From the NCBI RefSeq assembly GCF_000283655.1, contig NC_016585.1, forward strand, positions 458,501-522,500: 64,000 nucleotides of DNA. Direction: 5' to 3'. The first letter of the stretch is position 1. Each line of letters starts with the position of its first letter. The position numbers and the translations under genes are program-made. The notes beneath the pieces are model-generated. The model worked only from the letters and a program-made list of their open reading frames with translations. It was not told the DNA's origin and ran no database searches. This document shows, one piece after another, positions 22,907 through 37,121 of the stretch. This DNA is from Azospirillum lipoferum 4B (GTDB taxonomy: Bacteria > Pseudomonadota > Alphaproteobacteria > Azospirillales > Azospirillaceae).

Positions 22907-22945
22907 CAGGACAGGGCCGGCGGCGACACTCTCGCCGCCTGTTCA

Positions 22946-23041
22946 CGGCTGGGGTGCCTGTGCGGATGCCGGATCGGCGGATGCGCGGGCTGAGACAACA
23001 CCCATCGAACCTGATCCGGGTCATGCCGGCGAAGGGAGCCG
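22946..23041 (+). promoter_or_regulatory. TPP (THI-box) riboswitch
   Basis: Thiamine pyrophosphate-sensing aptamer. The closing stem P1 is CGGCT (22946-22950) with AGCCG (23037-23041). Conserved elements appear in order: GGGGTGCC (22950-22957), GCTGAGA (22989-22995), CACCC (23000-23004), then GAACCTGATCCGGGTCATGC and CGGCGAAGGGA. The last two form the pyrophosphate-binding helices P4/P5 almost letter for letter. Eighty-five bases separate it from the ATG of the binding-protein gene. No run of T follows, and GAGGAG near 23111 is the ribosome site. Control by sequestering that site is therefore more likely than termination (inference). Confidence 0.95.
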
Positions 23042-23125
23042 ACCGGAACCCGACGGACCGGCCGTAAATGCCCCGTCCCCTCCGCGTCGCTCCGCTTGCC
23101 GGCGCGTGTTGAGGAGTTTTCGGTC

Positions 23126-24262
23126 ATGCGGCGTGCGCTTCCCCTTCTGATCGGCCTGCTGGCCGCATCCTCCTGTCTGTCGTCCGCCGCCCGCGCCGAC
23201 GACACGCTGTCCTTTCCGGTGCTGGTGCCGCTGACCGGCTTCCTGTCGCTGGAGGGCACCAGCCAGCGCAACGGTGCCGTCCTGGCGCTGAAGCAGACCC
23301 CGGCCGGGATCGCCATCGCCTCCGAAGTCGTCGACACCGGCACCTCGCCCGAGGCGGCGGTGACGGCGCTGGAGCGCGCGGCCGGCAGCGGCACGGTCGG
23401 GGCGGTCGCCGCCAGCATGCTCGGCACCCAGATGCTGGCGATGCTGCCGCTGGCGCAGGAGCTGAAGCTGCCGCTGGTCACCGTCTCGGGCACCGCCTCG
23501 ATCACCGAGCAGGGCAACCCCTGGGTCTTCCGCTTCTTCCCCGGCGATGCCGTGACCAAGGCCGCCCATGCCCGCTATGTGGTGGAGGAGCTGGGCAAGC
23601 GGCAGCCGGCCGTCATCTACCAGACCACCGCCTATGGCCAGAGCGGCAAGACCCATCTCGACGCCGCCTTCAAGGCTCTGGGCGTCACCCCCGTCTTCGA
23701 GGAGGGGGTGGACCCCGCCGCCAAGGACCTGCTGCCGGTGTTGACCAAGGCGCTGGCCGCCAAGCCCGACGTGCTGGTGCTGCATCTGCATTCCGGCCCG
23801 ACCGCGTTGCTGCTGCGGCAGGCGGCGTCCAGCGGGGTGGCGGTGCCCATCGTCGCCGGCTCCGCCATGCATCAGCCGAGCACCGCCGCCCTGCTGGAAC
23901 CGGCGGAGCTGAAGGGCGTCTGTGCCGAGACCGCGGCCTCGCCCATCTCCGGCGGCACGCCGGAGGTCAAGGCCTTTACCGATGCCTACCGCACCGTCTT
24001 CGGCAAGGAGCCGGATGCCTTCGCGCTCGGCCAGTATGATGGCATGACCATGGTGCTGGAGGCGGTGAAGGCCGGCGCCCGCGGCCCCGACGCGATCCGC
24101 AAGGCTCTGTCGTCGGAGACCTTCAAGGGCCTCGCCATGACCTACAAGTCCGACGGCAAGGGCAACATGGCCCATTCCGCCGTCATCGTCTGCTATGACG
24201 GGACCAGCCGCGTGCCGGTGCTGGCGAAGCGCTACGACGACCCCGCACTCGCGGCGAAGTGA
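23126..24262 (+). CDS. Liv-type ABC importer binding protein under TPP riboswitch control
   Basis: A 378-residue periplasmic binding protein of the Peripla_BP_6 (LivK-like) class. A signal peptide (MRRALPLLIGLLAASSCLSSAARA) is followed by two Rossmann-like lobes. SFPVLVPLTGFLSLEGTSQRNG and LPLVTVSGTASITEQGNPWVFRFFPGD are the usual substrate-cleft segments, and YGQSGKTHLDAAFKALGV starts lobe two. A GAGGAG site precedes the ATG at 23126. Members usually bind branched-chain amino acids, amides or urea. Here the TPP riboswitch just upstream argues that the ligand is thiamine, its pyrimidine or thiazole moiety, or a breakdown product. It is the first gene of a four-gene operon. Confidence 0.85.
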   Translation: MRRALPLLIGLLAASSCLSSAARADDTLSFPVLVPLTGFLSLEGTSQRNGAVLALKQTPAGIAIASEVVDTGTSPEAAVTALERAAGSGTVGAVAASMLGTQMLAMLPLAQELKLPLVTVSGTASITEQGNPWVFRFFPGDAVTKAAHARYVVEELGKRQPAVIYQTTAYGQSGKTHLDAAFKALGVTPVFEEGVDPAAKDLLPVLTKALAAKPDVLVLHLHSGPTALLLRQAASSGVAVPIVAGSAMHQPSTAALLEPAELKGVCAETAASPISGGTPEVKAFTDAYRTVFGKEPDAFALGQYDGMTMVLEAVKAGARGPDAIRKALSSETFKGLAMTYKSDGKGNMAHSAVIVCYDGTSRVPVLAKRYDDPALAAK

Positions 24263-24266
24263 GCGG

Positions 24267-25139
24267 ATGGCGGCGCTTCAACTGCTGGTCAACGGGGTGG
24301 CGCTGGGGGCGGCCTATGCGCTGGTGGCGCTGGGATTCGTGCTGGTGCTGAACGCCACCTCGGCGGTGAATTTCGCCCAGGGCGATCTGGTCATGGCCGG
24401 CGGGCTGCTGGCGGTGGCGCTGGCGCCCCTGATCCCGCTGCCGGGCATCGCCCTGCTGCCGGTGGTGCTGGCGCTGATGGCGGGACTGGGGCTGCTGCTG
24501 GCGCTGGCGGCCTATCTGCCGCTGCGCCGCCGGCCGCCGGTGTCGGTCTTCATCAGCACCATCGCCATCGGCATCATCCTGCAGAACGGCGCCGCCATCC
24601 TGTTCGGGCCGGAGCCGCGCGCTGCGCCGCCGCTGCTCGGCGACGACACCCTTTCCATAGGCGGGCTGGCGGTGCCGGAGCAGTCGCTCGCCATCGTCGC
24701 GGTGGCGGCGTTGCTGATCGGCGCGCAGCAATGGGTGTTCGCCCGCACGCAGCTTGGACGCCGGCTGCGCGCCACGGCGCAGGACCCGGAGATGGCGCGG
24801 GCCTGCGGCGTGCCGGTCACGGCGATGATCCTGGTGACCTTCGCCATCGGTGCCGCCTGTGCCGGGGCGGCGGGGCTGCTGCTCGCCAACCGCTATTTCG
24901 TCACGCCGACCGCGGGCGGGGACCTGATTTTGAAGGCCTACATCGCGGTAACCATCGGTGGCTGGGGGTCGGTGCCGGGGGCTGTGGTGGGGGCGCTGCT
25001 GATCGCGCTGTTCGAGGTGGGGGTGTCGTCGGTGCTGTCCTACCCAGTGGCGCTGGGAGCGCTGTACCTGACGCTGCTGGCGATCCTGGTGTTGCGGCCG
25101 CAAGGCCTGTTCGGCGAAGCGGTGCGCCGCCGTGGCTGA
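24267..25139 (+). CDS. LivH-type ABC permease (riboswitch operon)
   Basis: A 290-residue permease of the branched-chain amino acid (HAAT) family. It has about eight helices. LVNGVALGAAYALVALGFVLVLNATSAVNFAQGDLVMAGG is the signature N-terminus of LivH proteins (seen in two adjoining pieces, residues 6-45). The cytosolic coupling loop LRATAQDPEMARACGVP and the end ILVLRPQGLFGE are typical. It starts four bases after the binding-protein stop, and its stop overlaps the GTG of the LivM-LivG gene. It probably moves the same thiamine-related ligand (inference from the riboswitch). Confidence 0.88.
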   Translation: MAALQLLVNGVALGAAYALVALGFVLVLNATSAVNFAQGDLVMAGGLLAVALAPLIPLPGIALLPVVLALMAGLGLLLALAAYLPLRRRPPVSVFISTIAIGIILQNGAAILFGPEPRAAPPLLGDDTLSIGGLAVPEQSLAIVAVAALLIGAQQWVFARTQLGRRLRATAQDPEMARACGVPVTAMILVTFAIGAACAGAAGLLLANRYFVTPTAGGDLILKAYIAVTIGGWGSVPGAVVGALLIALFEVGVSSVLSYPVALGALYLTLLAILVLRPQGLFGEAVRRRG

Positions 25140-26979
25140 GCCGCGTCCCCCGGTGAAGATTCCCTCTCCCCCCCGGGGAGAGGGTCAGGGTGAGGGGGAT
25201 TCGTTTGCCGAACGATCCTCGCGGCGCGTCCCCCTCACCCCAACCCTCTCCCCGGGGGGGAGAGGGAGTAGTGTCGGGGTGGAGAAGCTTGCGCTGCTCG
25301 CCGGCGCCCTCGCCCTGCTGGTCTACGCGTTCGCCTTCGCCTCTCCCTATGGGCTGCGCGTGCTGACAGTTGCCGGTGTCTATGCGCTGGCGACCTTCGG
25401 GTTCCAGATCGTCTTCGGGCTCGGCGGCGCGTTGTCGCTCGCCCAGGGCGCCTTCTTCGGTGTCGGCGCCTATGTGACGGGCATTCTCGGCAGCCGCTAT
25501 GGGTTGGGCTTCGAGGCGACCTTTCCGCTGTCGATGCTGGTGCCGCTCCTGCTGGCGCTGCCGGTCGGGCTGGCGGTGCTGCGGCTGGAATCCCACTATT
25601 TCGCCCTGGCGACGTTGGGCATCGCGCAGGTTCTGCATTTGCTGGCGGTCAACCTGCCGGAGCTGACCGGCGGCTCCAACGGGCTGGCCGGGGTGCCGGC
25701 GGTGGTGCTGTTCGGCTGGACGGTGCCGCGCGGGCTGCCGATGGCGGCGCTGGTCTGGGGGCTGGTGGCGCTCGGCGGGCTGGTGGGGTGGCGGCTGGCG
25801 CGCGGGCGGCTCGGACGGTCGCTGACCATGCTGCGCGACGATCCGCTGGCGGCGGGAACGCTGGGGCTCGACGTCGGGCGGCTGCGGCTGGCGGCCTTCG
25901 GCATCAGCGCCCTGTTCGCCGGTGCGGCCGGAGCGCTGGCGGTCCACACCCAGCGCGTCGTCTCGCCGGAGGTGCTGGAGTTCCCGGTCATGGTCTCCAT
26001 CCTCACCATCGCCATCGTCGGCGGGCGGGGGCGGATGGCCGGCGCGGTGCTGGGTGCCGTGCTGCTGCTGCATCTGCCGGAATGGTTCCGCTTTCTGGAG
26101 CGCGGCTATCTGGTCGTCTATGGCGCGGCGTTGCTGCTGACCGTGCTGCTGGCGCCCGACGGGCTGACCGGACTGCTCGACCGTGCCGCCGGCCGCCTGT
26201 TCGGCCGTCCGGCCCGTGCCCTGCCGGAGGCGCGCGAACCGCCGCCGCCCGTTGCCATAGACGGGATGACGGTGGAGGAACTGGTCAAGTCCTTCGGCGG
26301 CGTGCGGGCGGTGGACGGCGTTTCGCTGGAGTTGCGGCCGGGCGGCATCACCGGGCTGATCGGCCCCAACGGGTCGGGCAAGACGACGGTCATCAACCTG
26401 CTGTCGGGGCTGGAGCGGCCGGATGCCGGGCGGGTGTGGCTCGGCGGACGGGACGTCACCGGTGCCCGCGCCGACCGTCTGGCCCGTGCCGGGCTGGCCC
26501 GCAGCTTCCAGGCGGCGATCCTGCCGGAAGGGGCCGGCGTGCTGGACGCAGTGGCCGCCGCCCGCCTTGCCGTCGATCCCGACGCGGCGACGGCGGAGGC
26601 GCATGCCCGCTGGGCGCTCGACCGGCTGGGAGTCGGCGAGCTTGCCGGGCAGGGCTGCGACGGGTTGCCGGCGGCGCTGCGGCGGCGGGTGGAACTGGCC
26701 CGCGCCCTGGTCCGCCGGCCCGCCGTGCTGCTGCTGGACGAGCCCGCCGCCGGGCTGACCGACGGCGAGAAGGCGGAACTTGCCGCCCTGCTGCGCGAAC
26801 TGGCGGGGGAGGGGATGGCGGTCCTGCTGGTGGAGCATGACATGGGCTTCCTGTTGCCCTTGGCCGGCCGGGTGCTGTGCCTCGACCGTGGGCAGGTGAT
26901 CTATGACGGCCTGGCCGATGGGGTGCGCCGGGATGCGACGGTGGCGGCGGCCTATCTCGGCCGGGCAGGAACCGCATGA
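25132..26979 (+). CDS. LivM-LivG fusion: ABC permease joined to ATPase
   Basis: A 615-residue fusion. Residues about 50-350 form a LivM-type permease (LALLVYAFAFASPYGLRVLTV, then FQIVFGLGGALSLAQGAFFGVG, and the coupling loop MLRDDPLAAGTLGLDV). Residues about 380-610 form a LivG-type ATPase with Walker A GPNGSGKTT near residue 410, Walker B VLLLDEPAAGL and the switch histidine in LLVEHDMG. The ABC signature is degenerate (LPAALRRRVELARAL in place of an LSGGQ-like motif). Residues about 11-46 are encoded by a palindromic repeat without stops. The GTG at 25132 overlaps the livH stop. A GTG at 25279, after the repeat and preceded by GAGGGAG supplied by the repeat, is an equally possible start and would remove those residues. 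Confidence 0.85.
   Translation: MAEPRPPVKIPSPPRGEGQGEGDSFAERSSRRVPLTPTLSPGGRGSSVGVEKLALLAGALALLVYAFAFASPYGLRVLTVAGVYALATFGFQIVFGLGGALSLAQGAFFGVGAYVTGILGSRYGLGFEATFPLSMLVPLLLALPVGLAVLRLESHYFALATLGIAQVLHLLAVNLPELTGGSNGLAGVPAVVLFGWTVPRGLPMAALVWGLVALGGLVGWRLARGRLGRSLTMLRDDPLAAGTLGLDVGRLRLAAFGISALFAGAAGALAVHTQRVVSPEVLEFPVMVSILTIAIVGGRGRMAGAVLGAVLLLHLPEWFRFLERGYLVVYGAALLLTVLLAPDGLTGLLDRAAGRLFGRPARALPEAREPPPPVAIDGMTVEELVKSFGGVRAVDGVSLELRPGGITGLIGPNGSGKTTVINLLSGLERPDAGRVWLGGRDVTGARADRLARAGLARSFQAAILPEGAGVLDAVAAARLAVDPDAATAEAHARWALDRLGVGELAGQGCDGLPAALRRRVELARALVRRPAVLLLDEPAAGLTDGEKAELAALLRELAGEGMAVLLVEHDMGFLLPLAGRVLCLDRGQVIYDGLADGVRRDATVAAAYLGRAGTA
25161..25267. repeat. Palindromic repeat pair inside the livM-livG reading frame
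   Basis: Left arm 25161-25200 and right arm 25228-25267 are inverted copies of 40 bases with three mismatches, separated by 27 bases. Each arm contains the hairpin CCCTCTCCCCCCCGGGGAGAGGG. All other copies in the window lie between genes. This one is in frame, and read through it encodes SPPRGEGQGEGD and PLTPTLSPGGRG, peptide strings typical of such repeats. Confidence 0.88.
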
Positions 26980-27677
26980 GCGCGCTGCTGTCCATCCGCG
27001 GCATGACCGCCGGCTATGGCGGGGCGACGGCGCTCAATGGTGTTTCGCTGAGCGTCGCGGCGGGGGAGACGGTGGCGCTGCTCGGTGCCAACGGGGCGGG
27101 AAAGTCGACGCTGCTGAAGGCGCTGCTCGGCCTCGTGCCGGCGCAGGGGGAGCTGCGCTTCGACGGCGGCGACCTTGGGCCGCTGGCGACGGAGGTGCGG
27201 GTCCGGCGCGGCATTGGCTATGTGCCGGAGGGGCGGCGGGTCTTCCCCGGCATGAGCGTGCGCGACAATCTGGAGGTCGCCGGCCTGCCCGCCGCCCGCG
27301 ACCGCGCGCAGGATGTCGAGCGCGTCTTCGCCCTGTTCCCCGATCTGGCGGTCAAGAGCCGGGACAGCGCCTGGCGCCTGTCCGGCGGCCAGCAGCAGAT
27401 GCTGAGCCTCGGCCGCGCGCTGATGGGCCGGCCGCACCTGCTGCTGCTGGACGAACCGTCGCTCGGCCTGTCGCCCAAGCTGGCCGACGAGGTGTTCGCC
27501 GCGGTCGGCCGCATCGCCGCCGCCGGCACCGCCGTGTTGCTGGCCGAACAGAGTGCGGCGCGCGCCCTGACGGTCGCCCCGCGCGCCGTCCTGCTGCGGT
27601 TGGGGCGCGTGGTGGGGGACGGGCCGGTGGCGTCGCTGTCGGATAAGGTGCTGCGCGAGGCCTTCTTCGGCGTTTAG
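26976..27677 (+). CDS. LivF-type ABC ATPase (riboswitch operon)
   Basis: A 233-residue ATPase overlapping the preceding stop by four bases (ATGA). Walker A is GANGAGKST, the Q-loop region GYVPEGRRVFPGMSV is typical of LivF, the signature is LSGGQQQMLSLGRAL, Walker B LLLLDEPSLGL and the switch region AEQSA. It is therefore a complete catalytic partner for the degenerate LivG half of the fusion protein. It is the last gene of the operon, and no thiamine biosynthesis gene follows. Confidence 0.9.
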   Translation: MSALLSIRGMTAGYGGATALNGVSLSVAAGETVALLGANGAGKSTLLKALLGLVPAQGELRFDGGDLGPLATEVRVRRGIGYVPEGRRVFPGMSVRDNLEVAGLPAARDRAQDVERVFALFPDLAVKSRDSAWRLSGGQQQMLSLGRALMGRPHLLLLDEPSLGLSPKLADEVFAAVGRIAAAGTAVLLAEQSAARALTVAPRAVLLRLGRVVGDGPVASLSDKVLREAFFGV

Positions 27678-27803
27678 CGCAAATCCCCTGCGTGTCCTGT
27701 GCAACAGGTGTCTGTCTCCTGCAACAGGATGGGCGGTTGGGCTTGCGGATGGGGGCGGGCACGGATAGCTTCGCCGCCGCAACCATCTATGGATTACCTC
27801 GTC

Positions 27804-29123
27804 ATGACCGCCCGTTCCGTCGCTTCGCTGTCCGCGCTTCTCCTGCTGGGTGTGGCGTCGGCTCCGGCGATGGCCGAACTGGTGCCGGTCGAGCCGAGCG
27901 TTCCGCCCGCCGTCTATTACGGCCTGCCGACGCCCGAGGCCGAGATCGTGGTCCCCGGTGCCCCGGCGCAGGATGCCAGGCCCGGCGACAAGCCGGCCGA
28001 GAAACAGGGAACCGCAGCGCCGGCGAAGCCGGAGGGCCCCGGCGAACTGATCGAAAGCTGGGATGGCGGCGCCGCCAAGAAGAAGGACGGCAGCTTCGCC
28101 TATTGCGTGGCCGAGGGGGAATTCACCTCCGGCCATGTGCTGATGTTCGCCCGCAGTCCGCAGGGGGAGACCAACATCGGCATCGGCATCCCCGGCGCCG
28201 ACCTGCCCAAGGGCGGCGAATGGCCGGTCACCATCGAGGTCGACAAGAAGCTGAAACGCGAACGGATCGCCATCGCCTCGCAGCCGGACATGCTGGTGGT
28301 CTCCAACGGCAAGGACGAGGAACTGGTCAATGCCCTGATGGGCGGGAACGAACTGGTGGTGTCGTCGGCCACCGACCGCATCGCCTTCAAGCTGTCCGGC
28401 ACCAAGAAGGTGCTGGGCGACCTGAGGACCTGCGTCGACAAGGGCGGCAACGTTCCGCCGATCAAGGTCGCCGCGGGCCGCCCGGCGGAGAAGAAGAACC
28501 GTCTGCCGGAAGGGCTGGACAGCCTGCTGACCGCGGCCGGCGTGCATGATGCCGAACTGGTGCCGATGGACAAGATCCCGCAGGAGCGCCGCCCGGCCGA
28601 CGTCGCCTGGCGCTTCGGCCCCATCGTCGGCGGCATCCGGGAACGCGCGGTGGGTGAGGACGCCAGGATCGACGAACTGTCGGACGGCTTCGCCGATGCC
28701 ATGAAGCAGCGGTGCGAAGGCACCCCGACCGTCAGCCTGAACCCGTCCGAACAGGCCGGTTCGGTCTGGCTGCGCACCGGCTCGGTCGATTGCGCCATGC
28801 CCCAGGGCACGCTGCACGTCACGCTGAACTTCCTGCTGTCGCAGCGCCGCCTGTTCACCGTGATCTTCCACGAGGCGGCCGAACCGGACTTCGCGCTGGC
28901 CGACAAGGTGCGCGACAACCTCGCCCATGTCCTGCGCCGCGCCGGCACCGCTCCGGCCACGGCACCGGGGGACGCCGCATCCGTCACACCGCCCGCCACT
29001 CCGCCGGCCACACCGCCCGCCGCACCGCCGGCAGCCGAGGCCGCTCCCCCCGCCGCATCTCAGGCGGGCTCCGCTCCTCCCACGGTGAAACCGCAGGCGA
29101 AGCCGCAGCCGGGCAAGCCCTGA
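27804..29123 (+). CDS. Exported protein with Pro/Ala-rich tail, unknown function
   Basis: About 439 residues. The signal peptide is MTARSVASLSALLLLGVASAPAMA. An acidic/proline linker follows, then a beta-rich domain (about residues 85-210: AYCVAEGEF ... NALMGGNELVV ... GTKKVLGDLRTC) resembling the small exported protein at 11303-11785. Next comes a second helical-plus-strand domain (about 230-385) with three cysteines, and a final low-complexity tail of about 50 residues built from P, A and T with a basic PKPQAKPQPGKP-like end. An ATG five codons upstream (27789) is also possible; neither has a strong ribosome site. A short inverted motif CCTGTGCAACAGG (about 27695-27707) lies upstream. Periplasmic or surface location is likely, and the role is unknown. 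Confidence 0.65.
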   Translation: MTARSVASLSALLLLGVASAPAMAELVPVEPSVPPAVYYGLPTPEAEIVVPGAPAQDARPGDKPAEKQGTAAPAKPEGPGELIESWDGGAAKKKDGSFAYCVAEGEFTSGHVLMFARSPQGETNIGIGIPGADLPKGGEWPVTIEVDKKLKRERIAIASQPDMLVVSNGKDEELVNALMGGNELVVSSATDRIAFKLSGTKKVLGDLRTCVDKGGNVPPIKVAAGRPAEKKNRLPEGLDSLLTAAGVHDAELVPMDKIPQERRPADVAWRFGPIVGGIRERAVGEDARIDELSDGFADAMKQRCEGTPTVSLNPSEQAGSVWLRTGSVDCAMPQGTLHVTLNFLLSQRRLFTVIFHEAAEPDFALADKVRDNLAHVLRRAGTAPATAPGDAASVTPPATPPATPPAAPPAAEAAPPAASQAGSAPPTVKPQAKPQPGKP

Positions 29124-29393: not shown

Positions 29394-30203
29394 ATGGAAC
29401 GTCGCTCACGCTCGGGCGCAGCGCTGCGCCTGCTCAATTCCGACTGGGTCCGCCCCATCCTGCTGATGGTCATCCTGCTGGTTCTGTGGGATCTGTCGGT
29501 CCGGCTGTTCGGGGTGCCCGCCTATCTGGTGCCGAAGCCCGGCGATGTCGTGCTGGCGATGATCGATGAATGGCCGCGGCTGCTGTCCGAATCCGTCCCG
29601 ACCTTCACGGCGACGCTGGGCGGCTTTGCGCTGTCGGTCCTGTTCGGCATTCCCATCGCGATGCTGATCGCCGGATCGCGCACGGTGGAGGCCTATGTCT
29701 ACCCGCTGCTGGTCTTCTCGCAGTCGATCCCCAAGGTCGCCATCGCGCCGCTGTTCGTGGTGTGGTTCGGCTTCGGCCTGATGCCGAAGGTGATCGCCGC
29801 CTTCCTGCTGGGCTTCTTTCCCGTCGTCGTCTCGGCGGTGCAGGGCTTCAAGTCGGTGGATGGCGAGATGATGGATCTGGCCCGCTCGATGAAGGCGTCG
29901 CGGCTGCAGACCTTCCGGATGGTCAGCCTGCCGCATGCGCTGCCGGCGATCTTCGCGGGCCTGAAGGTCTCCATCACCCTGGCGGTGGTGGGGGCGGTGG
30001 TCGGCGAATTCGTCGGCTCCAACTCCGGCATCGGCTTCGTCCTGCAACGCTCCATCGGCAATTTCGAACTGCCCTTGATGTTCGCGGCGCTGACCGTGCT
30101 GGCATTGATGGGCGTGCTGCTGTTCTGGGTCATCGACGTGCTGGAACGCTTCGCCATCCCCTGGCATGCCAGCCAGCGCGACAAGTTCAGCCCCACCGTC
30201 TGA
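29394..30203 (+). CDS. NMT1/Tau-type ABC importer permease
   Basis: A 269-residue inner-membrane permease of the SsuC/TauC/ThiX family. It has six helices. The coupling motif is in DLARSMKASRLQTFRMVSLPHALPAIFAGLK (the EAA loop, residues about 160-190), followed by VGEFVGSNSGIGFVL. GGAGAAG four bases before the ATG at 29394 sets the start. It is the first gene of an eight-gene unit with its binding protein and ATPase next. Members import sulfonates, nitrate, pyrimidine precursors of thiamine or other small anions and bases; the ligand here is unknown. Confidence 0.87.
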   Translation: MERRSRSGAALRLLNSDWVRPILLMVILLVLWDLSVRLFGVPAYLVPKPGDVVLAMIDEWPRLLSESVPTFTATLGGFALSVLFGIPIAMLIAGSRTVEAYVYPLLVFSQSIPKVAIAPLFVVWFGFGLMPKVIAAFLLGFFPVVVSAVQGFKSVDGEMMDLARSMKASRLQTFRMVSLPHALPAIFAGLKVSITLAVVGAVVGEFVGSNSGIGFVLQRSIGNFELPLMFAALTVLALMGVLLFWVIDVLERFAIPWHASQRDKFSPTV

Positions 30204-30299
30204 CGTCAGTCCAAAACCCGATTCACCGACAAGAACCCCGACGCCGCACAGCGCCGGCCGACGGGGCGATCCACCACCCATGGGAGGACACCGGTCGTG

Positions 30300-31316
30300 A
30301 TGAAGAAAACCATCGTCGCGGCGCTCTGCGCCTTTGCCGCCTCCACCTTGCCGGCGCAGGCCGCCGACAAGGTGACGCTGATGCTGAACTGGTACGTCTA
30401 CGGCGAACACGCGCCCTTCTATTACGGCAAGGACAAGGGCTTGTACGAGGCCGAAGGCATCGACCTGGAAATCCAGGAGGGCCGCGGCTCGGCGATCACC
30501 ACCCAACTGGTCGCTGCCAAGGGCGTCACCTTCGGCTATGTCGACGTGCCGACCATGATCAAGGCCGCGGTGAAGGGCGCGCCGGTGACCTCGCCGGGCG
30601 TGCTGCTGCAGACCAGCCCGATGTCGGCGATGGGCTTCAGCGACAAGAACATCCGCAAGCCGGAAGACATCAAGAACCGCATCGTCGCCATGACGCCGGG
30701 CGACAGCATGTCCCAGATCTGGCCGCTGTTCCTGAAGAAGACCGGCCTGAAGGAGCGTGACTTCGAAGTGGTGTCGGGCGACGCCCAGACCAAGCTGAAC
30801 GCCGTCATCAACGGACAGGCCGATTTGCTGCTGGGCTATGTCATGGACCAGAGCATGAAGATCAAGGACGCCACCGGCAAGTCGGTGACGCCGATCCGCT
30901 TCGCCGATTACGGCGTCAACATGGTCTCGTCGGGCATCATCGCCAACACCGACACGCTGAAGGACAACCCCGACCTCGTCCGCCGCTTCATGGCCGCCAC
31001 CACCAAGGCGGTGGAGGAGGCGGAGAAGGCGCCGAAGGAGGCCGCGGCTGCAATCCTGAAGGCCAACCCCAAGGGCGGCAAGCCCGACACCCTGCAGGAG
31101 GGCTTCGAGCTGACCATCCCGCTCTACCGCACCAAGGAGACGCAGGGCATGCGGCCCTTCCAGGTCACCGACGCCAACATGAAGGAGACGGTGGAGCTGC
31201 TGGTCGAATATGGCGGGCTGGACGCCTCGGCCAAGGAGAACCCCAAGCGCTTCTACACCCGCGACTTCCTGCCGGCCGACCCCGCGGCGAAGGCGATGAA
31301 CGCCGCCGCCAAGTGA
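30300..31316 (+). CDS. NMT1/THI5-like ABC binding protein
   Basis: A 338-residue periplasmic binding protein with signal peptide MKKTIVAALCAFAASTLPAQAA. The mature start VTLMLNWYVYGEHAPFYYGKDKGLYEAEGIDLEI is the NMT1 family hallmark, including the aromatic and His ligand-site positions seen in pyrimidine-precursor and sulfonate binders. GSAITTQLVAAKGVTFGYVD and MTPGDSMSQIWPLFL line the cleft. A GTG one codon before the ATG is an alternative start; GGGAGG precedes both. The ligand is not decided by sequence. The downstream sugar-acid-type enzymes suggest a carbon source, whereas the family suggests a small heterocycle or anion. Confidence 0.85.
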   Translation: MKKTIVAALCAFAASTLPAQAADKVTLMLNWYVYGEHAPFYYGKDKGLYEAEGIDLEIQEGRGSAITTQLVAAKGVTFGYVDVPTMIKAAVKGAPVTSPGVLLQTSPMSAMGFSDKNIRKPEDIKNRIVAMTPGDSMSQIWPLFLKKTGLKERDFEVVSGDAQTKLNAVINGQADLLLGYVMDQSMKIKDATGKSVTPIRFADYGVNMVSSGIIANTDTLKDNPDLVRRFMAATTKAVEEAEKAPKEAAAAILKANPKGGKPDTLQEGFELTIPLYRTKETQGMRPFQVTDANMKETVELLVEYGGLDASAKENPKRFYTRDFLPADPAAKAMNAAAK

Positions 31317-31365
31317 CCGACCCGTGGTGACTGACCGGCCCCCCGCAAGGCACGACGAGGAGAGC

Positions 31366-32190
31366 ATGGCACAGCCTCAGTTGAAACTGGTGGGCGAGGC
31401 GGAAACGCAGCGCCTGTCCGGCGCGCCGCTGATCCGCATCGACGGCGTGAGCAAGACCTACCGCAGCCGCGACGGCGAGGTGCCGTCGCTCCACCCCATC
31501 AGCTTCGACGTGCGGCCGGGGGAGTTCCTGGTGGTGGTCGGCCCGTCCGGCTGCGGCAAGTCCACCCTGCTGAAGATGCTGGCCGGGCTGCTGCCGGTCA
31601 CCAGCGGCACCATCAGCATCGAAGGCGACGTGGTGACCGAGCCGCACGACGACACCGGCATCGTCTTCCAGAGCCCGACCCTGCTGGCCTGGAGGTCGGT
31701 GCTGCGCAACATCATGCTGCCGGTGGAAATCCGCCGCCTGCCGCGGGAGCGCTACCTGGAGCGCGCGCACAAGCTGATCGGGATGACCGGGCTGACGGGG
31801 TTCGAGAACAAATACCCCTGGCAGCTGTCGGGCGGCATGCAGCAGCGCGCCGCCCTGTGCCGGGCGCTGGTGCACGACCCGAAGATCCTGCTGATGGACG
31901 AGCCGTTCGGCGCGCTCGACGCCATGACCAGGGAGCGGATGAATGTCGAGCTGCAGCGCATCCAGTTCGAGACCGGCAAGACGGTGATCCTGATCACCCA
32001 CTCCATCCCCGAAGCGGTGTTCCTGGCCGACCGGGTGATGGTGATGTCGGAACGCCCCGGCACCATCGCCGCCACCTACGAGGTCCCGCTGGAGCGCCCG
32101 CGGACGCTGGACGTCATGGGCGACCCGGTTTTCATCCAGCTGACCCAAACCATTCGCAAGCATTTCGCGGCGCAGGGGCATCTGGATTAG
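31366..32190 (+). CDS. ABC importer ATPase (Ssu/Tau/ThiZ type)
   Basis: A 274-residue ATPase with Walker A GPSGCGKST, Q-loop VFQSPTLLAWRSV (the tryptophan after the Q-loop is typical of the taurine/sulfonate group), signature LSGGMQQRAALCRAL, Walker [13 protein letters not shown] and switch LITHSIPEAVFLADRV. The start at 31366 follows a GAGGAGAG site. It completes the importer with the two preceding genes. Confidence 0.9.
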   Translation: MAQPQLKLVGEAETQRLSGAPLIRIDGVSKTYRSRDGEVPSLHPISFDVRPGEFLVVVGPSGCGKSTLLKMLAGLLPVTSGTISIEGDVVTEPHDDTGIVFQSPTLLAWRSVLRNIMLPVEIRRLPRERYLERAHKLIGMTGLTGFENKYPWQLSGGMQQRAALCRALVHDPKILLMDEPFGALDAMTRERMNVELQRIQFETGKTVILITHSIPEAVFLADRVMVMSERPGTIAATYEVPLERPRTLDVMGDPVFIQLTQTIRKHFAAQGHLD

Positions 32191-32204
32191 GCGCCGGCTG
32201 CGAT

Positions 32205-32354
32205 TGCCCCCTCCCTAACCCTCTCCCGCCCTCGGTCGGCCGAAGGCCGATCCGATCGCGGGAGAGGGAACTCCGCCACCTTGCGAATCCTCCCCTCTCC
32301 CGCGAAGCGGGGGAGGGAGGGACCCGCGGCGAAGCCGTGGGAGGGAGGGGGCAT
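32205..32354. repeat. Palindromic repeat pair within an operon
   Basis: Left half CCCCTCCCTAACCCTCTCCC with an internal hairpin GGTCGGCCGAAGGCCGATCC, and right half CCTCTCCCGCGAAGCGGGGG ending GAGGGAGGGGGCAT. The outer ends are inverted copies. It separates the transporter ATPase gene from the enolase-type gene and could trim or stabilise the upstream transcript. Confidence 0.8.
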
Positions 32355-32382
32355 GCCCCATCACCACGAAAGACTCTCAACC

Positions 32383-33747
32383 ATGCCCGCCCCCCGTCTC
32401 CGCATCCGCGCCATCGAGCTGTACGAGCGGCCGGTCCGTTTCGTGAAGCCGTTCCGCTTCGGCGCGGTGACGGTGGAGGCCGCCCCGCAGGCCTTCGTCC
32501 GCGCCCTGGTCGACGTGGAGGGGCAGGGCGAGGCCTGGGGGGCGACCGCCGAGATGATGATGCCGAAATGGTTCGACAAGCGGCGCGACCGCAGCCCGGC
32601 CCAGACGGTGGACGGCCTGCGCCGCTCGCTGATCGAAGCGCGCGACGCCTATCTGTCCGACGACCGGCTCGACACCGCCTTCGGTCATCACGCCGCCTAC
32701 AGCCCGGCGCTGGAGCCGAAGCTGGCCGCCGCCTTCGGGCCGGCGCAGATCGACAAGGCGGTGTTCGACGGGCTGCTGCGGGTGCTGGGCCTGAATGCAT
32801 TCGACGGGCTGGGCGGCAATGCCGCCGGGCTGGATGCACGGCTGACGCCCGATCTCGCCGGCTGCGATCTGGACGGCTTCCTGCGGGACCTCTCCCCGCT
32901 TGCCGAGGTGGAACTGCGTCACACCGTCGGCCTGCTGGACAAACCCGACGACTTGCGTGCCCTGCTGGAGCGCTCACCGCTGCGCTGGTTCAAGATCAAG
33001 CTGGGCGGCGACGTTTCCGCCGACATCGACCGGATTGGCGAACTGTCGGCCGTGCTGGAGAGGGCCGTTCCAGGCTACCGCGCCACGTTGGACGGCAATG
33101 AGCAATACCGCGATGCCGGTCATGTCGCGGAGCTTCTCGACCGGTTGGACGCTGCCCCGGCGCTGGCCGGTTTCCGCAACGCACTCGCCTATCTGGAGCA
33201 GCCCATCGCACGGGAGACGGCGCTTGCCCGGCCGCTGGGCGCGGTTGCGGAGCGGGCGCCGGTCATCATCGACGAGTCCGACGACGGCTATGACGCCTTT
33301 CCGCGCGCCCGCGCCATGGGCTATCGCGGCGTGTCGTCCAAATCCTGCAAGGGCCTCTACAAGGCGATGCTCAACCGCGCCCGCTGTGGGGCGTGGGGGC
33401 CGCCGCACTTCATCTCCGCGGAGGATCTGACCTGCCAAGCCGGGCTGTCGGTGCAGCAGGACACCGCCCTGGTCGCCTTCCTCGGAATCCCGCACGCCGA
33501 ACGCAACGGCCACCAGTATGGCGAGGGCTTCGGCAGCGAGGCGGAGGCCGACGCCTTCCTCGCCGCGCATCCCGGCTTCTACGCCCGCGACGCCGACGGG
33601 ACGGTCAGGCTCGCCACCGGCACCGGGCGGCTGCCGACGGCGCCGCTGTCCGGCCCCGGCTTCGCTCATATCGCCGACCCCGACTGGTCCGGCCTGTCGC
33701 CCCTTTCAAACCCGACATCAGCGCTTTCCGAAGGAGTTCCGCCATGA
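32383..33747 (+). CDS. Enolase-superfamily enzyme (mandelate racemase/muconate lactonizing type)
   Basis: A 454-residue enzyme. It has an N-terminal capping domain followed by a TIM barrel with enolase-superfamily residues in order: KIK (Lys204/Lys206, acid-base), Asp237 in LDGNE, Glu272 in LEQPI and Asp297/Glu298 in IIDESDD as metal ligands, then SSKSCKG carrying the second possible base. The KxK pattern places it nearer the muconate-lactonizing group. Such enzymes abstract a proton next to a carboxylate, giving dehydration, racemisation or cycloisomerisation. The C-terminal 60 residues (after about 390) are an extra extension. The stop overlaps the next start by four bases. The substrate is unknown; a sugar acid is plausible from the neighbours. 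Confidence 0.78.
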   Translation: MPAPRLRIRAIELYERPVRFVKPFRFGAVTVEAAPQAFVRALVDVEGQGEAWGATAEMMMPKWFDKRRDRSPAQTVDGLRRSLIEARDAYLSDDRLDTAFGHHAAYSPALEPKLAAAFGPAQIDKAVFDGLLRVLGLNAFDGLGGNAAGLDARLTPDLAGCDLDGFLRDLSPLAEVELRHTVGLLDKPDDLRALLERSPLRWFKIKLGGDVSADIDRIGELSAVLERAVPGYRATLDGNEQYRDAGHVAELLDRLDAAPALAGFRNALAYLEQPIARETALARPLGAVAERAPVIIDESDDGYDAFPRARAMGYRGVSSKSCKGLYKAMLNRARCGAWGPPHFISAEDLTCQAGLSVQQDTALVAFLGIPHAERNGHQYGEGFGSEAEADAFLAAHPGFYARDADGTVRLATGTGRLPTAPLSGPGFAHIADPDWSGLSPLSNPTSALSEGVPP

Positions 33748-34895
33748 GCACCAAGCGCCTTGGCCTCATCATGCACGGCGTCACCGGGCGGATGGGCATG
33801 AACCAGCACCTGATCCGCTCGATCCTGGCGATCCGCGCCCAGGGCGGCGTGGCCCTGTCCGACGGCACGCGCGTCATGCCCGACCCGATCCTGGTCGGCC
33901 GCAATGCCGAGAAGATGCAGGAACTGGCCCACCGCCACGGCATCGAGCGCTGGAGCGACAATCTCGACGCCGCACTGGAAAACCGCGACGACGTAATCTT
34001 CTTCGATGCCGGCACCACCCAGATGCGCCCGACCCTGCTGGAAAAGGCGATCCGCGCCGGCAAGCATGTCTATTGCGAAAAGCCCATCGCCACCAACCTG
34101 GACGAGGCGCTGCGCGTCGTCCGTCTGGCGGCGGAGGCCGGGGTGAAGAACGGCACGGTGCAGGACAAGCTGTTCCTGCCGGGGCTGGAAAAGCTGCGCA
34201 TGCTGCGCGACAGCGGCTTCTTCGGCCGCATGCTGTCGGTGCGCGGCGAGTTCGGCTATTGGGTGTTCGAGGGCGACTGGCAGCCGGCGCAGCGCCCGTC
34301 CTGGAACTACCGCGAGGAGGATGGCGGCGGCATCATCCTCGACATGATCTGCCACTGGCGCTATGTGCTCGACAATCTGTTCGGGCAGGTGAAGAGCATC
34401 TCCTGCCTGGGCGCCACCCACATTCCGGAACGCTGGGACGAGACGGGCAAGCCCTACAAGGCCACCGCCGACGACGCCGCCTATGCGATGTTCGAGCTTG
34501 AGGGCGGGGTTATCGCCACCATCAACTCCTCCTGGTGCACGCGGGTCTATCGCGACGATCTGGTGACCTTCCAGGTCGACGGCACCAACGGCTCGGCGGT
34601 CGCCGGCCTGACCGACTGCGTGATCCAGCCGCGCCAGGGCACGCCGCGCCCGGTTTGGAACCCCGACCAGAAGCAGACCATCGACTTCTACGACACCTGG
34701 CAGCCGGTGCCGGACAACGCCGTGTTCGACAACGGCTTCAAAGTGCAGTGGGAGTCCTTCATCCGCCATGTGGTGGAGGATGCGCCGTACCGGCACGGCC
34801 TGATCGAAGGCGCCAAGGGCGTCCAGCTGGTGGAATGCGCGCTGCAGAGCTGGCGCGAGCGCCGCTGGGTGGATGTGCCGGCCATCGAGGGGTGA
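33744..34895 (+). CDS. Gfo/Idh/MocA-family oxidoreductase
   Basis: A 383-residue NAD(P)-dependent oxidoreductase. The Rossmann domain begins GLIMHGVTGRMGMNQH, a G-x-x-G-x-x-G variant. The conserved HVYCEKPIA contains the EKP motif with the catalytic-site lysine, and GGGIILDMICHWRYVLDNLFG provides the later Asp and His. The family oxidises or reduces sugars, inositols and their acids. It is translationally coupled (ATGA) to the enolase-type gene, so the two probably act on successive intermediates. Confidence 0.85.
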   Translation: MSTKRLGLIMHGVTGRMGMNQHLIRSILAIRAQGGVALSDGTRVMPDPILVGRNAEKMQELAHRHGIERWSDNLDAALENRDDVIFFDAGTTQMRPTLLEKAIRAGKHVYCEKPIATNLDEALRVVRLAAEAGVKNGTVQDKLFLPGLEKLRMLRDSGFFGRMLSVRGEFGYWVFEGDWQPAQRPSWNYREEDGGGIILDMICHWRYVLDNLFGQVKSISCLGATHIPERWDETGKPYKATADDAAYAMFELEGGVIATINSSWCTRVYRDDLVTFQVDGTNGSAVAGLTDCVIQPRQGTPRPVWNPDQKQTIDFYDTWQPVPDNAVFDNGFKVQWESFIRHVVEDAPYRHGLIEGAKGVQLVECALQSWRERRWVDVPAIEG

Positions 34896-34907
34896 GGCGT
34901 CGGCTGA

Positions 34908-35048
34908 CGATGCCCCCTCCCTAACCCTCCCCCGCTATCGGACGGACCTTCGGTCCGCCGAGGGCGGGAGAGGGGACTGCCGCTGAACTCCCGCGAAGCT
35001 CCTACCCCCTCTCCCACCGAAGGTGGGGGAGGGATGGGGAGGGGGCAC
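34908..35048. repeat. Palindromic repeat pair within an operon
   Basis: CCCCTCCCTAACCCTCCCCC on the left and GGGGGAGGGATGGGGAGGGG on the right enclose a hairpin CGGACCTTCGGTCCG. It is the same family as 32205-32354. It lies between the oxidoreductase and DUF993 genes, so the operon contains two such units. Confidence 0.8.
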
Positions 35049-35079
35049 GCGGCGACGACCTACCCAGGAACCCCATCCC

Positions 35080-36240
35080 ATGCCCACCATCCACCTCCCC
35101 CGTCCCGACCGCAGCATCGAGACCTACACCCTCTCCCCGCCGCGCGGCTTTCCCGCCCGCACCGAGCGGCCGCTGACCCGCATCGCCTTCGCCGCCGCCC
35201 ATATGGTCGCCGACCCGCTGGCGGAGGGTGATCCATGGCTGGCCCCGGCCATCGACTGGGACCGGACCATCGCCTTCCGCGAGCATCTGTGGGATCTCGG
35301 TCTCGGCGTCGCCGAGGCGATGGACACGGCGCAGCGCGGCATGGGGCTGGACTGGCCGACCTCGCTGGAGCTGATCCGCCGCTCACTGTCGGCCGCCAAG
35401 GCGCGCGGTGGGGTGATCGCCTGCGGCGCCGGCACCGACCATCTGCCGCCGGAAAACGCCCGCGGCATCGACGACGTCATCCGCGCCTATGAGGAGCAGG
35501 TCGAGGCCATCGAGGATCTCGACGGCAGCATCATTCTGATGGCGTCGCGTGCGCTGGCCCGCGTCGCCAAGGGGCCGGAGGATTACGTCCGCGTCTATGG
35601 CCGCATCCTGTCGCAGGTGAAGCGGCCGGTGATCCTGCATTGGCTGGGCGACATGTTCGACCCGGCGCTGGCCGGCTATTGGGGCACCAAGGATATCGAC
35701 GCGGCGATGGACACCGCGCTGTCGATCATCGGCGACTTCGCGTCCAAGGTCGACGGCATCAAGGTCTCGCTGCTCGACAAGGACAAGGAGATCGCCATGC
35801 GGCGGCGCCTGCCAAGTAGTGTCCGCATGTATACCGGCGACGACTTCAACTATGCGGAGCTGATCGAGGGCGACGGGCAGCATCATTCCGACGCGCTGCT
35901 CGGCATCTTCGACGCCATCGCGCCGGCCGCAGCATCGGCACTCGCCCATCTGGCCGACGGCGACCAGGCGGCGTTCCACGACATCCTCGCCCCCACCGTT
36001 CCGCTGTCGCGCCACATCTTCAAGGCGCCGACCCGCTTCTACAAGACCGGCGTCGTCTTCATGGCCTATCTGAACGGCCATCAGGACCACTTCACCATGG
36101 TCGGCGGGCAGGAGAGCACGCGCTCCACCTTGCATCTGGCGGAGCTGTTCCGGCTGGCCGACAAGGCCGGGCTGCTGTCCGATCCTGACCGGGCGGCGCA
36201 GCGGATGGCGGCGGTGCTGGCGGTGCGGGGGATTTCGTGA
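35080..36240 (+). CDS. DUF993 family protein (dihydrodipicolinate synthase-like TIM barrel)
   Basis: A 386-residue protein of the DUF993 group, distantly related to the DapA/NAL aldolase barrel. Conserved stretches are IDWDRTIAFREHLWDLGLGVAEAMDTAQRGMGLDW, seen in two adjoining pieces, ACGAGTDHLPPE, RPVILHWLGDMFDPALAGYWG, DGIKVSLLDKDKE (the lysine is in the position of the Schiff-base lysine of the aldolases) and VRMYTGDDFNYAELI. An aldolase or lyase step on a keto-sugar or sugar-acid intermediate is plausible but unproven. The stop overlaps the next ATG by one base (TGATG). Confidence 0.78.
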   Translation: MPTIHLPRPDRSIETYTLSPPRGFPARTERPLTRIAFAAAHMVADPLAEGDPWLAPAIDWDRTIAFREHLWDLGLGVAEAMDTAQRGMGLDWPTSLELIRRSLSAAKARGGVIACGAGTDHLPPENARGIDDVIRAYEEQVEAIEDLDGSIILMASRALARVAKGPEDYVRVYGRILSQVKRPVILHWLGDMFDPALAGYWGTKDIDAAMDTALSIIGDFASKVDGIKVSLLDKDKEIAMRRRLPSSVRMYTGDDFNYAELIEGDGQHHSDALLGIFDAIAPAAASALAHLADGDQAAFHDILAPTVPLSRHIFKAPTRFYKTGVVFMAYLNGHQDHFTMVGGQESTRSTLHLAELFRLADKAGLLSDPDRAAQRMAAVLAVRGIS

Positions 36241-37121
36241 TGCCCGATTTCAAGACAAGAGACTTCTCCGGAGATCATCGCTGGCTGTCGATCAACACCG
36301 CGACGGTCCGCAAGCAGGGCGATCTGGTTGAGATCCTCGACGCCTGCACCCGCCGCGGCATCCGCGCGGTTGCGCCCTGGCGCGATCAGGTGGCGGCGGT
36401 CGGGCTCGACGCTGCGGTGCGGGCGGTGCGGACGGGGGAACTGGCGCTGTCCGGCTATTGCCGCGGCGGCATGTTCCCGGCCGACCCGTCGAAGGCGGCG
36501 GAGGTCCGCGACGACAACCGGCGCGCGGTGGACGAGGCGGCGGCGCTGGGGGCGGTGTGCCTCGTGCTGGTGGTCGGCGGACTGCCGCAATATTCCCGCC
36601 CCGGATCGCCGGCCAGCAAGGACTTGGCCCTCGCCCGCTCGCAGGTGGAGGACGGCATCGCCGAACTGCTGGATTATGCCCGCGAGGCCGGCATGCCGCT
36701 GGCCATCGAGCCGCTGCACCCGATGTATGCCGCCGACCGCGCCTGCGTGAACACGATGGCCCAGGCGCTCGACCTCTGCGACCGGCTGGATCCGGGGCGG
36801 TCGGGGGCGCTGGGGGTGGCGGTCGACGTTTATCATGTCTGGTGGGATCCGCAGCTGGAGGCGCAGATCCGCCGTGCCGGAAGGGAACGGCTGCTGGCCT
36901 TCCATGTCTGCGACTGGCTGGTGCCGACCACCGACCTGCTGCTCGACCGCGGCATGATGGGCGACGGCGTCATCGACATTCCGCGCATCCGCGGCTGGGT
37001 GGAGGAAAGCGGCTTCACCGGCTTTTCGGAGGTGGAGATCTTTTCGCAAGGCAACTGGTGGGAAAAGCCGATGGGCGAGGTGCTGGACACCTGCATCGAG
37101 CGGCACCGCAGCGTGGTTTGA
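36240..37121 (+). CDS. Sugar phosphate isomerase/epimerase-like TIM barrel
   Basis: A 293-residue protein of the AP endonuclease family 2/xylose isomerase-like fold. Metal-binding positions characteristic of the family can be traced: Glu in LAIEPLHPMY, Asp-x-x-His in VAVDVYHVWWD, His in LLAFHVCDW and the final Glu in GFSEVEIFS. Members isomerise or epimerise keto and aldo sugars, including inositol derivatives. It is the last enzyme gene of the cluster, 70 bases before the TetR gene. Confidence 0.82.
   Translation: MPDFKTRDFSGDHRWLSINTATVRKQGDLVEILDACTRRGIRAVAPWRDQVAAVGLDAAVRAVRTGELALSGYCRGGMFPADPSKAAEVRDDNRRAVDEAAALGAVCLVLVVGGLPQYSRPGSPASKDLALARSQVEDGIAELLDYAREAGMPLAIEPLHPMYAADRACVNTMAQALDLCDRLDPGRSGALGVAVDVYHVWWDPQLEAQIRRAGRERLLAFHVCDWLVPTTDLLLDRGMMGDGVIDIPRIRGWVEESGFTGFSEVEIFSQGNWWEKPMGEVLDTCIERHRSVV

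Follow-up and report, generated by a model that had tools for sequence, protein, structure and literature searches.

Why should a TPP riboswitch stand ahead of an operon for an ABC importer of the branched-chain amino acid (Liv, or HAAT) type? The question is raised by a locus in the window, the 64 kb stretch of Azospirillum lipoferum 4B DNA analysed here, for which a first-pass annotation had proposed the uptake of thiamin, of one of its halves or of a degradation product. That proposal is supported both by the TPP control of the operon and by the thiamin-gene content of the genomes that carry it, and the importer very probably carries some B1 vitamer. We favour a TPP-repressed HAAT-type ABC importer whose most likely substrate is the thiazole half of B1 (HET or its carboxylated derivative, cHET), and assign this choice of substrate a probability of roughly one half. 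The riboswitch match, the operon, the conservation of both and the thiamin genes of the carriers are observed; the substrate, the repression by TPP and the thiazole kinase step discussed below are what we infer.

The TPP riboswitch aptamer (THI element) occupies positions 22940..23054 on the plus strand and matches RF00059 over model positions 1-105, the full length of the model, with 64.5 bits (E 2.3e-10). This score clears the gathering threshold of 54.3 bits, in keeping with the annotation's expectation of a significant covariance match. In the Rfam scan the aptamer is the sole gathering-level riboswitch in the 64 kb, and the other match is a tRNA. Agreement between the RF00059 and Pfam matches upholds the proposed arrangement of an aptamer ahead of a four-gene Peripla_BP_6/LivH/LivM-LivG/LivF operon; however, the intervening gap, previously given as 85 bases, is 71 bases when counted between the end of the RF00059 model and the ATG at 23126.

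The operon begins with a periplasmic binding protein of 378 amino acids (P0001; 23126..24262, plus strand), which belongs to Peripla_BP_6 (PF13458, E 3.1e-47) and has an N-terminus that by eye resembles a signal peptide. It is followed by a LivH-like permease with a BPD_transp_2 domain (24267..25139, plus strand; PF02653, E 1.4e-34), which was scanned as an open reading frame from 24264 and has its ATG at 24267. The third gene (25132..26979, plus strand) fuses a LivM-like permease (PF02653, E 7.1e-35) to a LivG-like ATPase (PF00005, E 6.5e-25) in one open reading frame. Because its first ~45 residues resemble translated repeat sequence, the true start may lie further downstream than 25132. A reading frame of fusion length (448-911 aa) is present in 59 of 63 clustered relatives. 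The fourth gene (26976..27677, plus strand) encodes a LivF-like ATPase (PF00005, E 1.5e-32). All four genes lie on the plus strand and overlap or nearly touch, and the Pfam matches (Peripla_BP_6, two BPD_transp_2 and two ABC_tran domains) complete the HAAT architecture within one operon. The annotation's remark that no thi biosynthesis gene is linked holds for the four operon genes.

Despite this architecture, the proteins fall below the NCBIfam cut-offs for the listed Liv families (LivF 185.3 of 441 bits, LivH 93.7 of 379, LivG 164.8 of 362, binding protein 48 of 477) and below those for the Urt equivalogs (UrtB 128 of 250.3 bits, UrtD 156.6 of 304.1, UrtE 191.2 of 285.8). For the two ATPase proteins these comparisons cover the best 25 of 186 and 187 families, among which UrtE and then LivF rank highest for the LivF-like ATPase, both under cut-off. 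The gene 3' of LivF in 16 distant loci had suggested a link to pyrimidine nucleotides; NCBIfam identifies the two such genes scanned (L100, L116) as PyrE equivalogs of the ordinary kind, and the neighbourhood is therefore treated as synteny.

Conservation of the pairing was examined at increasing distance. Within the nearest genus (G001-G037), 36 of 37 genomes carry an ortholog of the importer, at 77-97% identity; the genome without one, G014, gave only matches near 30%. The genus orthologs among the 80 loci described below are Azospirillum except one named Roseomonas. Each of the 36 orthologs is preceded on the same strand by an RF00059 match, at a distance of 56-138 bases from the aligned part. 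As these genomes carry only 3-5 RF00059 matches each, the pairing of aptamer and importer in the window is confirmed as real and not a product of chance. The aptamer-core pattern was present in 29 of 30 genus loci checked as DNA, and at the thirtieth (L038, in G029) RF00059 scores 62.7 bits.

For more distant relatives, loci were taken from the best 80 of 119, and the 51 that were not of the Azospirillum type were scanned with Rfam; two Azospirillum loci (L067, L069) lie outside these scans. Gathering-level TPP matches were found just upstream in 25 loci, and four more (L086, L092, L093, L103) have sub-threshold RF00059 matches of 47-53 bits at the right coordinates, on contigs of agreeing length. 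Together these make 29 of the 49 distant loci with upstream DNA, a count that excludes two loci beginning at the gene (L087, L102) and treats L074, with only 233 bases upstream, as lacking the riboswitch. The other 20 orthologs show no riboswitch, and no match was found at the loci titled betaproteobacteria, Lautropia, Rubrivivax and Reyranella. The class was also sampled evenly, with a completeness of at least 90% requested. Of the 387 genomes in this sample, 33 have an ortholog at E <= 1e-50; a riboswitch precedes 23 of these, spread over nine families (three of the 23 matches fall under the gathering score), and is absent from 10. Ten contigs, recognised by equal length, occur both in this sample and in the distant set. 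The arrangement, which the annotation had expected to recur in relatives, is thus kept far past the genus.

In four of the 25 loci examined for spacing (L077, L080, L085, L095), the AGGGA of the aptamer is followed at 7-9 bases by an in-frame ATG, and L082 is a fifth such locus by eye (AGGGAGGTACGTCATG). With AGGGA at this distance from the start, the aptamer should act on the importer gene itself, and the position of its 3' strand at the expected ribosome-binding site in the five loci argues for translational control of that gene. We infer the mechanism of control in the window, where the aptamer stands further from the start than in these five loci. There, the sequence GAGGAG (23111..23116, plus strand) reads as a probable Shine-Dalgarno site and CCCCTCC (23077-23083) as a possible anti-Shine-Dalgarno element, but their pairing is absent from the minimum-energy folds of the window leader. 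Sequestration of the Shine-Dalgarno site in a CCTCC/GAGGAG hairpin looks plausible when several Azospirillum leaders are read by eye, but the minimum-energy folds do not contain it and it was set aside.

Which part of the B1 pathway might such an importer serve? Thiamin genes were surveyed in 60 genomes, comprising 10 of the window's genus and 50 others. ThiE exceeded its cut-off in 56 genomes, ThiC was found in 28, ThiG exceeded 300 bits in 23, ThiM was found in three (with a partial match in G104) and ThiB exceeded its cut-off in two (G072, G086); thiamine pyrophosphokinase (TIGR01378) was matched in none of the 60. All 10 genomes of the window's genus possess ThiG, ThiC and ThiE, and there the importer would serve salvage only. 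The picture is different in the distant genomes that carry both riboswitch and importer: in 26 of 28 the ThiG search gave nothing above 35 bits, where true ThiG scores exceed 300, although many of the distant carriers are MAGs in which the absence of a gene can reflect incompleteness. The two exceptions are both Skermanella. The 26 genomes lacking ThiG have retained ThiE in 24 cases, together with ThiC in five, ThiM in one and ThiB in two. Among importer genomes without the riboswitch, ThiG is present in 11 of 20 and missing from nine. THI4 was also considered as a hidden thiazole synthase, but while PF01946 is matched at E <= 0.001 in all 60 genomes, none of the matches is a plausible THI4; the best (E 3.5e-9, 37 bits) covers ~50 residues of a nucleotide-binding fold.

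Other genes under TPP control in the same genomes indicate what the importer would have to provide. In one Azospirillum genome (G007), five riboswitches precede thiXYZ, thiC, thiO/thiG, the Liv-type importer and a LuxE/LuxC/NMT1 cassette. Of the 26 distant riboswitch carriers without ThiG, 20 have another TPP riboswitch ahead of some or all of the thiXYZ genes; the RF00059 search behind this count used strict filters, by which weak matches are lost. In the stretches read, thiXYZ is complete in 16 of the 20; the partial cases are G092 and G093 (ThiX and ThiY), G102 (ThiY with TenA) and G110 (a fragment of ThiX where the contig ends). The remaining six comprise G072 and G086, which have ThiB, G079 and G087, which show no other riboswitch match under the strict filters, G090, with riboswitches at a LuxE/LuxC cassette and at a contig end, and G091. 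Pyrimidine supply is thereby visible in most of the riboswitch carriers without ThiG, through thiXYZ in 20 and ThiC in five, with overlap, whereas the known thiazole sources looked for are missing from them.

Thiazole fits these genomes best because ThiXYZ covers the pyrimidine, and because most of the distant riboswitch carriers lack ThiG yet keep ThiE. With TPP-controlled thiXYZ in 20 of 26, thiazole is the need left unfilled, and the Liv-type importer, as the TPP-controlled system that has no other explanation, most simply supplies it. The best reading is therefore one of two importers, one for each half of B1, with the Liv-type system taking the thiazole. Judged by its gene content, G091 is the clearest case for thiazole import: thiC, thiM and the importer (locus L098) each stand behind a TPP riboswitch and ThiE is present, whereas ThiG was not found, an absence that is provisional because this genome is a MAG. 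The wider proposal, that the HAAT importer is dedicated to the thiazole half and is paired with ThiXYZ in several alphaproteobacterial families, marine ones included, so that B1 is built from two imported halves, we offer tentatively, at slightly under even odds.

In the proposed scheme, scarcity of TPP would cause the aptamer to free the ribosome-binding site, allowing the binding protein, the two permease domains and the two ATPase domains to be made. Imported thiazole would then be phosphorylated, and since ThiM is missing from nearly all tested carriers, this route needs another kinase. ThiE would couple the phosphorylated thiazole to HMP-PP. Where neither half is made in the cell, ThiXYZ would bring in the pyrimidine and the Liv-type importer the thiazole.

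Several observations count against thiazole as the substrate, among them the scarcity of ThiM, the presence of ThiG in all 10 tested genomes of the window's genus and the 20 of 49 distant orthologs without a riboswitch. Nine of the 20 genomes whose distant orthologs have no riboswitch also lack ThiG, and two conserved acidic residues of the binding protein (E43, D141) would equally suit positively charged thiamin. The available portions of two marine papers point the same way, with thiazole auxotrophs rare in the coastal system of one (PMC10881298) and dual-precursor auxotrophs rarely assembled in the other (PMC12236431).

The association with ThiG loss was also evaluated in the class sample, where ThiG is absent from 18 of the 23 genomes that have riboswitch and importer, from three of the 10 that have only the importer and from 154 of the 354 that have no importer (present in five, seven and 200, respectively). 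Within family f70, two genomes (G157, G255) have the riboswitch and importer and lack ThiG, and three (G335, G402, G463) have ThiG and lack the importer. Fisher tests that ignore kinship gave p 0.0005 for lack of ThiG in 26/28 distant carriers with the riboswitch versus 9/20 without it, and, in the class sample, p 0.016 for 18/23 versus 3/10, p 0.0018 for 18/23 versus 157/364 and p 0.029 for any importer versus none (21/33 versus 154/354). On the binding-protein tree, however, the riboswitch state changes five times and ThiG 10 times, and a kinship-aware test finds 2-5 independent pairs and no significance. In this test, 75 of 77 rows were counted (L087 and L102 have no riboswitch label), and the window, L048, L059 and L065 were assigned the ThiG state of the genus, their own genomes not having been tested by name. 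We had considered the distribution as statistical proof that the importer replaces ThiG, but with so few independent pairs we do not claim the link as statistically established.

The binding pocket bears on the choice of ligand. The amino-acid contacts of LivJ, which we take to be Y18, S79, T102, D121, Y150, Y202 and E226, were compared with 51 orthologs aligned with LivJ and LivK of E. coli. In all 51, Y18 is replaced by E, S79 by G and Y202 by H, and A100-A101-T102 reads S-G-T; T102, D121 and Y150 are kept. E226 falls beside a gap, where alignments with 3td9 and 4gnr place an invariant S246, which probably occupies the LivJ E226 position. That the pocket is invariant, and yet unlike the amino-acid site, suggests that it holds a single specific ligand other than an ordinary alpha-amino acid.

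An importer for thiamin or its phosphates, standing in for a near-absent ThiBPQ with a thiamin kinase and ThiL to finish the pathway, is the alternative that survives best, although we consider it unlikely. ThiB, the sole thiamin importer searched for, exceeds its cut-off in just two of 60 genomes, and E43 and D141, invariant in the 51 orthologs, could hold a cation. However, ThiE in 24 and TPP-controlled pyrimidine-importer genes in 20 of the 26 carriers without ThiG would both be idle if thiamin entered whole. Import of whole thiamin would also require a kinase, and TIGR01378 is matched in none of the 60 genomes.

Import of a pyrimidine vitamer (HMP, AmMP or FAMP) is improbable. The commonest other TPP-controlled transporters in this clade are indeed pyrimidine importers, but with ThiXYZ genes already in 20 of the 26 carriers without ThiG and ThiC in five, two systems would then serve one half and none the other, leaving ThiE without a partner. 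Even less probable is that the importer takes up glycine, cysteine or tyrosine as an ordinary amino acid for use in thiazole synthesis. This protein family does take in amino acids and amides, and three positions of the amino-acid site (D141, Y170, T123) are retained, but the changes at Y18, S79, Y202 and probably E226 speak against such a ligand. Since a thiazole synthase that it could feed is missing from 26 of 28 distant carriers with the riboswitch, this was discarded as the main reading. That the aptamer is a relic or belongs to another gene, with the importer unrelated to B1, is very improbable: it does begin 33 bases past the end of a same-strand EamA gene, and 20 of 49 distant orthologs show no riboswitch match, but it stays beside the importer in 36 of 36 genus orthologs and in nine families and sits at the ribosome-binding site of the importer gene in five loci.

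We recognised no report of a TPP riboswitch with a Liv/HAAT operon in the open-access literature as far as its texts were available, supplements aside. In the available portions of related papers, the TPP riboswitch belongs to an alga (PMC9870897), a different RNA motif lies near livM/livK (PMC2704228), 19 transporter orthologs are counted with their list in a supplement (Sun et al. 2013; PMC3766115), and the pairing is not mentioned (PMC2258182). Thus the RNA is known and the transporter architecture is known, and within this literature their pairing is new, though it may have been listed earlier; the substrate is probably new too. The B1 transporters named in the accessible text of PMC10881298 are ThiB, ThiT, ThiY, ThiV, CytX, YkoF, a nucleobase-type permease and omr1, and those in the accessible text of PMC12236431 are ThiT, ThiBPQ, ThiXYZ, CytX, YkoCDEF and omr1. 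None of those named is of the Liv type, and a thiazole importer is not among them. The same portion of PMC12236431 describes Rhodobacterales that have ThiE but not ThiC or ThiG as capable of using pyrimidine and thiazole that they import. If the importer is dedicated to thiazole, it would explain how such cells could obtain that half, annotations as 'branched-chain amino acid transporter' would need correcting, and a missing thiazole kinase other than ThiM would be pointed to. The Nisaea type strains offer a direct testbed for thiazole import; in Nisaea denitrificans DSM 18348, a carrier, ThiC was found and ThiG and ThiM were not.

Compared with known systems, the importer combines familiar parts in an unfamiliar way. 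As in E. coli LivJK-HMGF and the urea importer UrtABCDE, a single operon supplies the Peripla_BP_6 binding protein, both BPD_transp_2 permease domains and both ABC ATPase domains; unlike them, the window operon is under a TPP riboswitch, has LivM and LivG fused, scores below the listed Liv and Urt cut-offs and has several substrate-site positions replaced. ThiW of the Firmicutes, a predicted thiazole transporter, is a membrane protein not known to have a periplasmic binding protein or dedicated ATPases; it resembles the importer described here in its TPP riboswitch and predicted thiazole cargo, whereas our importer has a periplasmic binding protein and ATPases of its own. A ThiW gene with a TPP riboswitch is recorded for Clostridium lundense in the part of PMC6478431 available. 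ThiBPQ also has a TPP riboswitch ahead of ThiB in G072 and G086, but uses a binding protein of another family, and ThiB is not over cut-off in 58 of the 60 genomes. ThiXYZ, listed as an HMP transporter in the accessible text of PMC12236431, is likewise a TPP-controlled ABC importer and is found in many of the same genomes, but it relies on an NMT1 binding protein of an unrelated family and on one permease gene and one ATPase gene.

Within the importer operon, the LivM-LivG open reading frame opens with ~45 residues (window positions 25132-25280) that bear a likeness to translated dispersed repeats (SPPRGEGQGEG, LSPGGRG), so the true start codon probably lies further in than 25132. The operon is followed by a gene for a secreted-looking protein (27699-29123), whose start in the longest reading falls 21 bases past the end of the LivF gene. 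This protein has no match in Pfam or NCBIfam; relatives occupy the equivalent position in 27 loci of Azospirillum and its near kin. Further downstream (29394-37121), additional genes come after an NMT1-type ABC importer that carries no riboswitch. Judged by eye, the products of these additional genes resemble a member of the enolase superfamily, an oxidoreductase of the Gfo/Idh type and a sugar isomerase or epimerase, and the entire region has the appearance of a catabolic operon unrelated to vitamin B1.

Among importer orthologs outside the Azospirillum type, 16 loci (L099, L100, L097, L109, L116 and 11 more) carry a PyrE-like gene 3ʹ of the importer on the same strand. The copies at two of these 16 loci, L100 and L116, were scanned with NCBIfam and proved to be ordinary pyrE genes, and therefore this association probably reflects synteny. 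Near orthologs that lack a riboswitch, iron-containing alcohol dehydrogenase genes are present (loci L073-L076 and L088; three of the five scanned), and an additional protein with a weak, below-cut-off match to AurF is encoded at L073, L075, L076, L081 and L083 (one scanned).

TPP riboswitches also precede other transport genes. Two reside directly upstream of ThiB-like binding proteins that score below the ThiB cut-off (C55 of genome G065; C37 of genome G066), and another (L176, genome G074) directly precedes a putative binding protein recognized solely by eye. In a further arrangement, a TPP riboswitch stands in front of a cassette for a LuxE-like acyl-protein synthetase, an acyl reductase resembling LuxC and the ATPase of an ABC importer (L122, G007; L194, G022; L195, G012; L181, G090), the ATPase being accompanied in the three Azospirillum cases (L122, L194, L195) by a permease and an NMT1-type binding protein. 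Such a cassette could serve to reduce a carboxylated breakdown product of vitamin B1 back to the alcohol.
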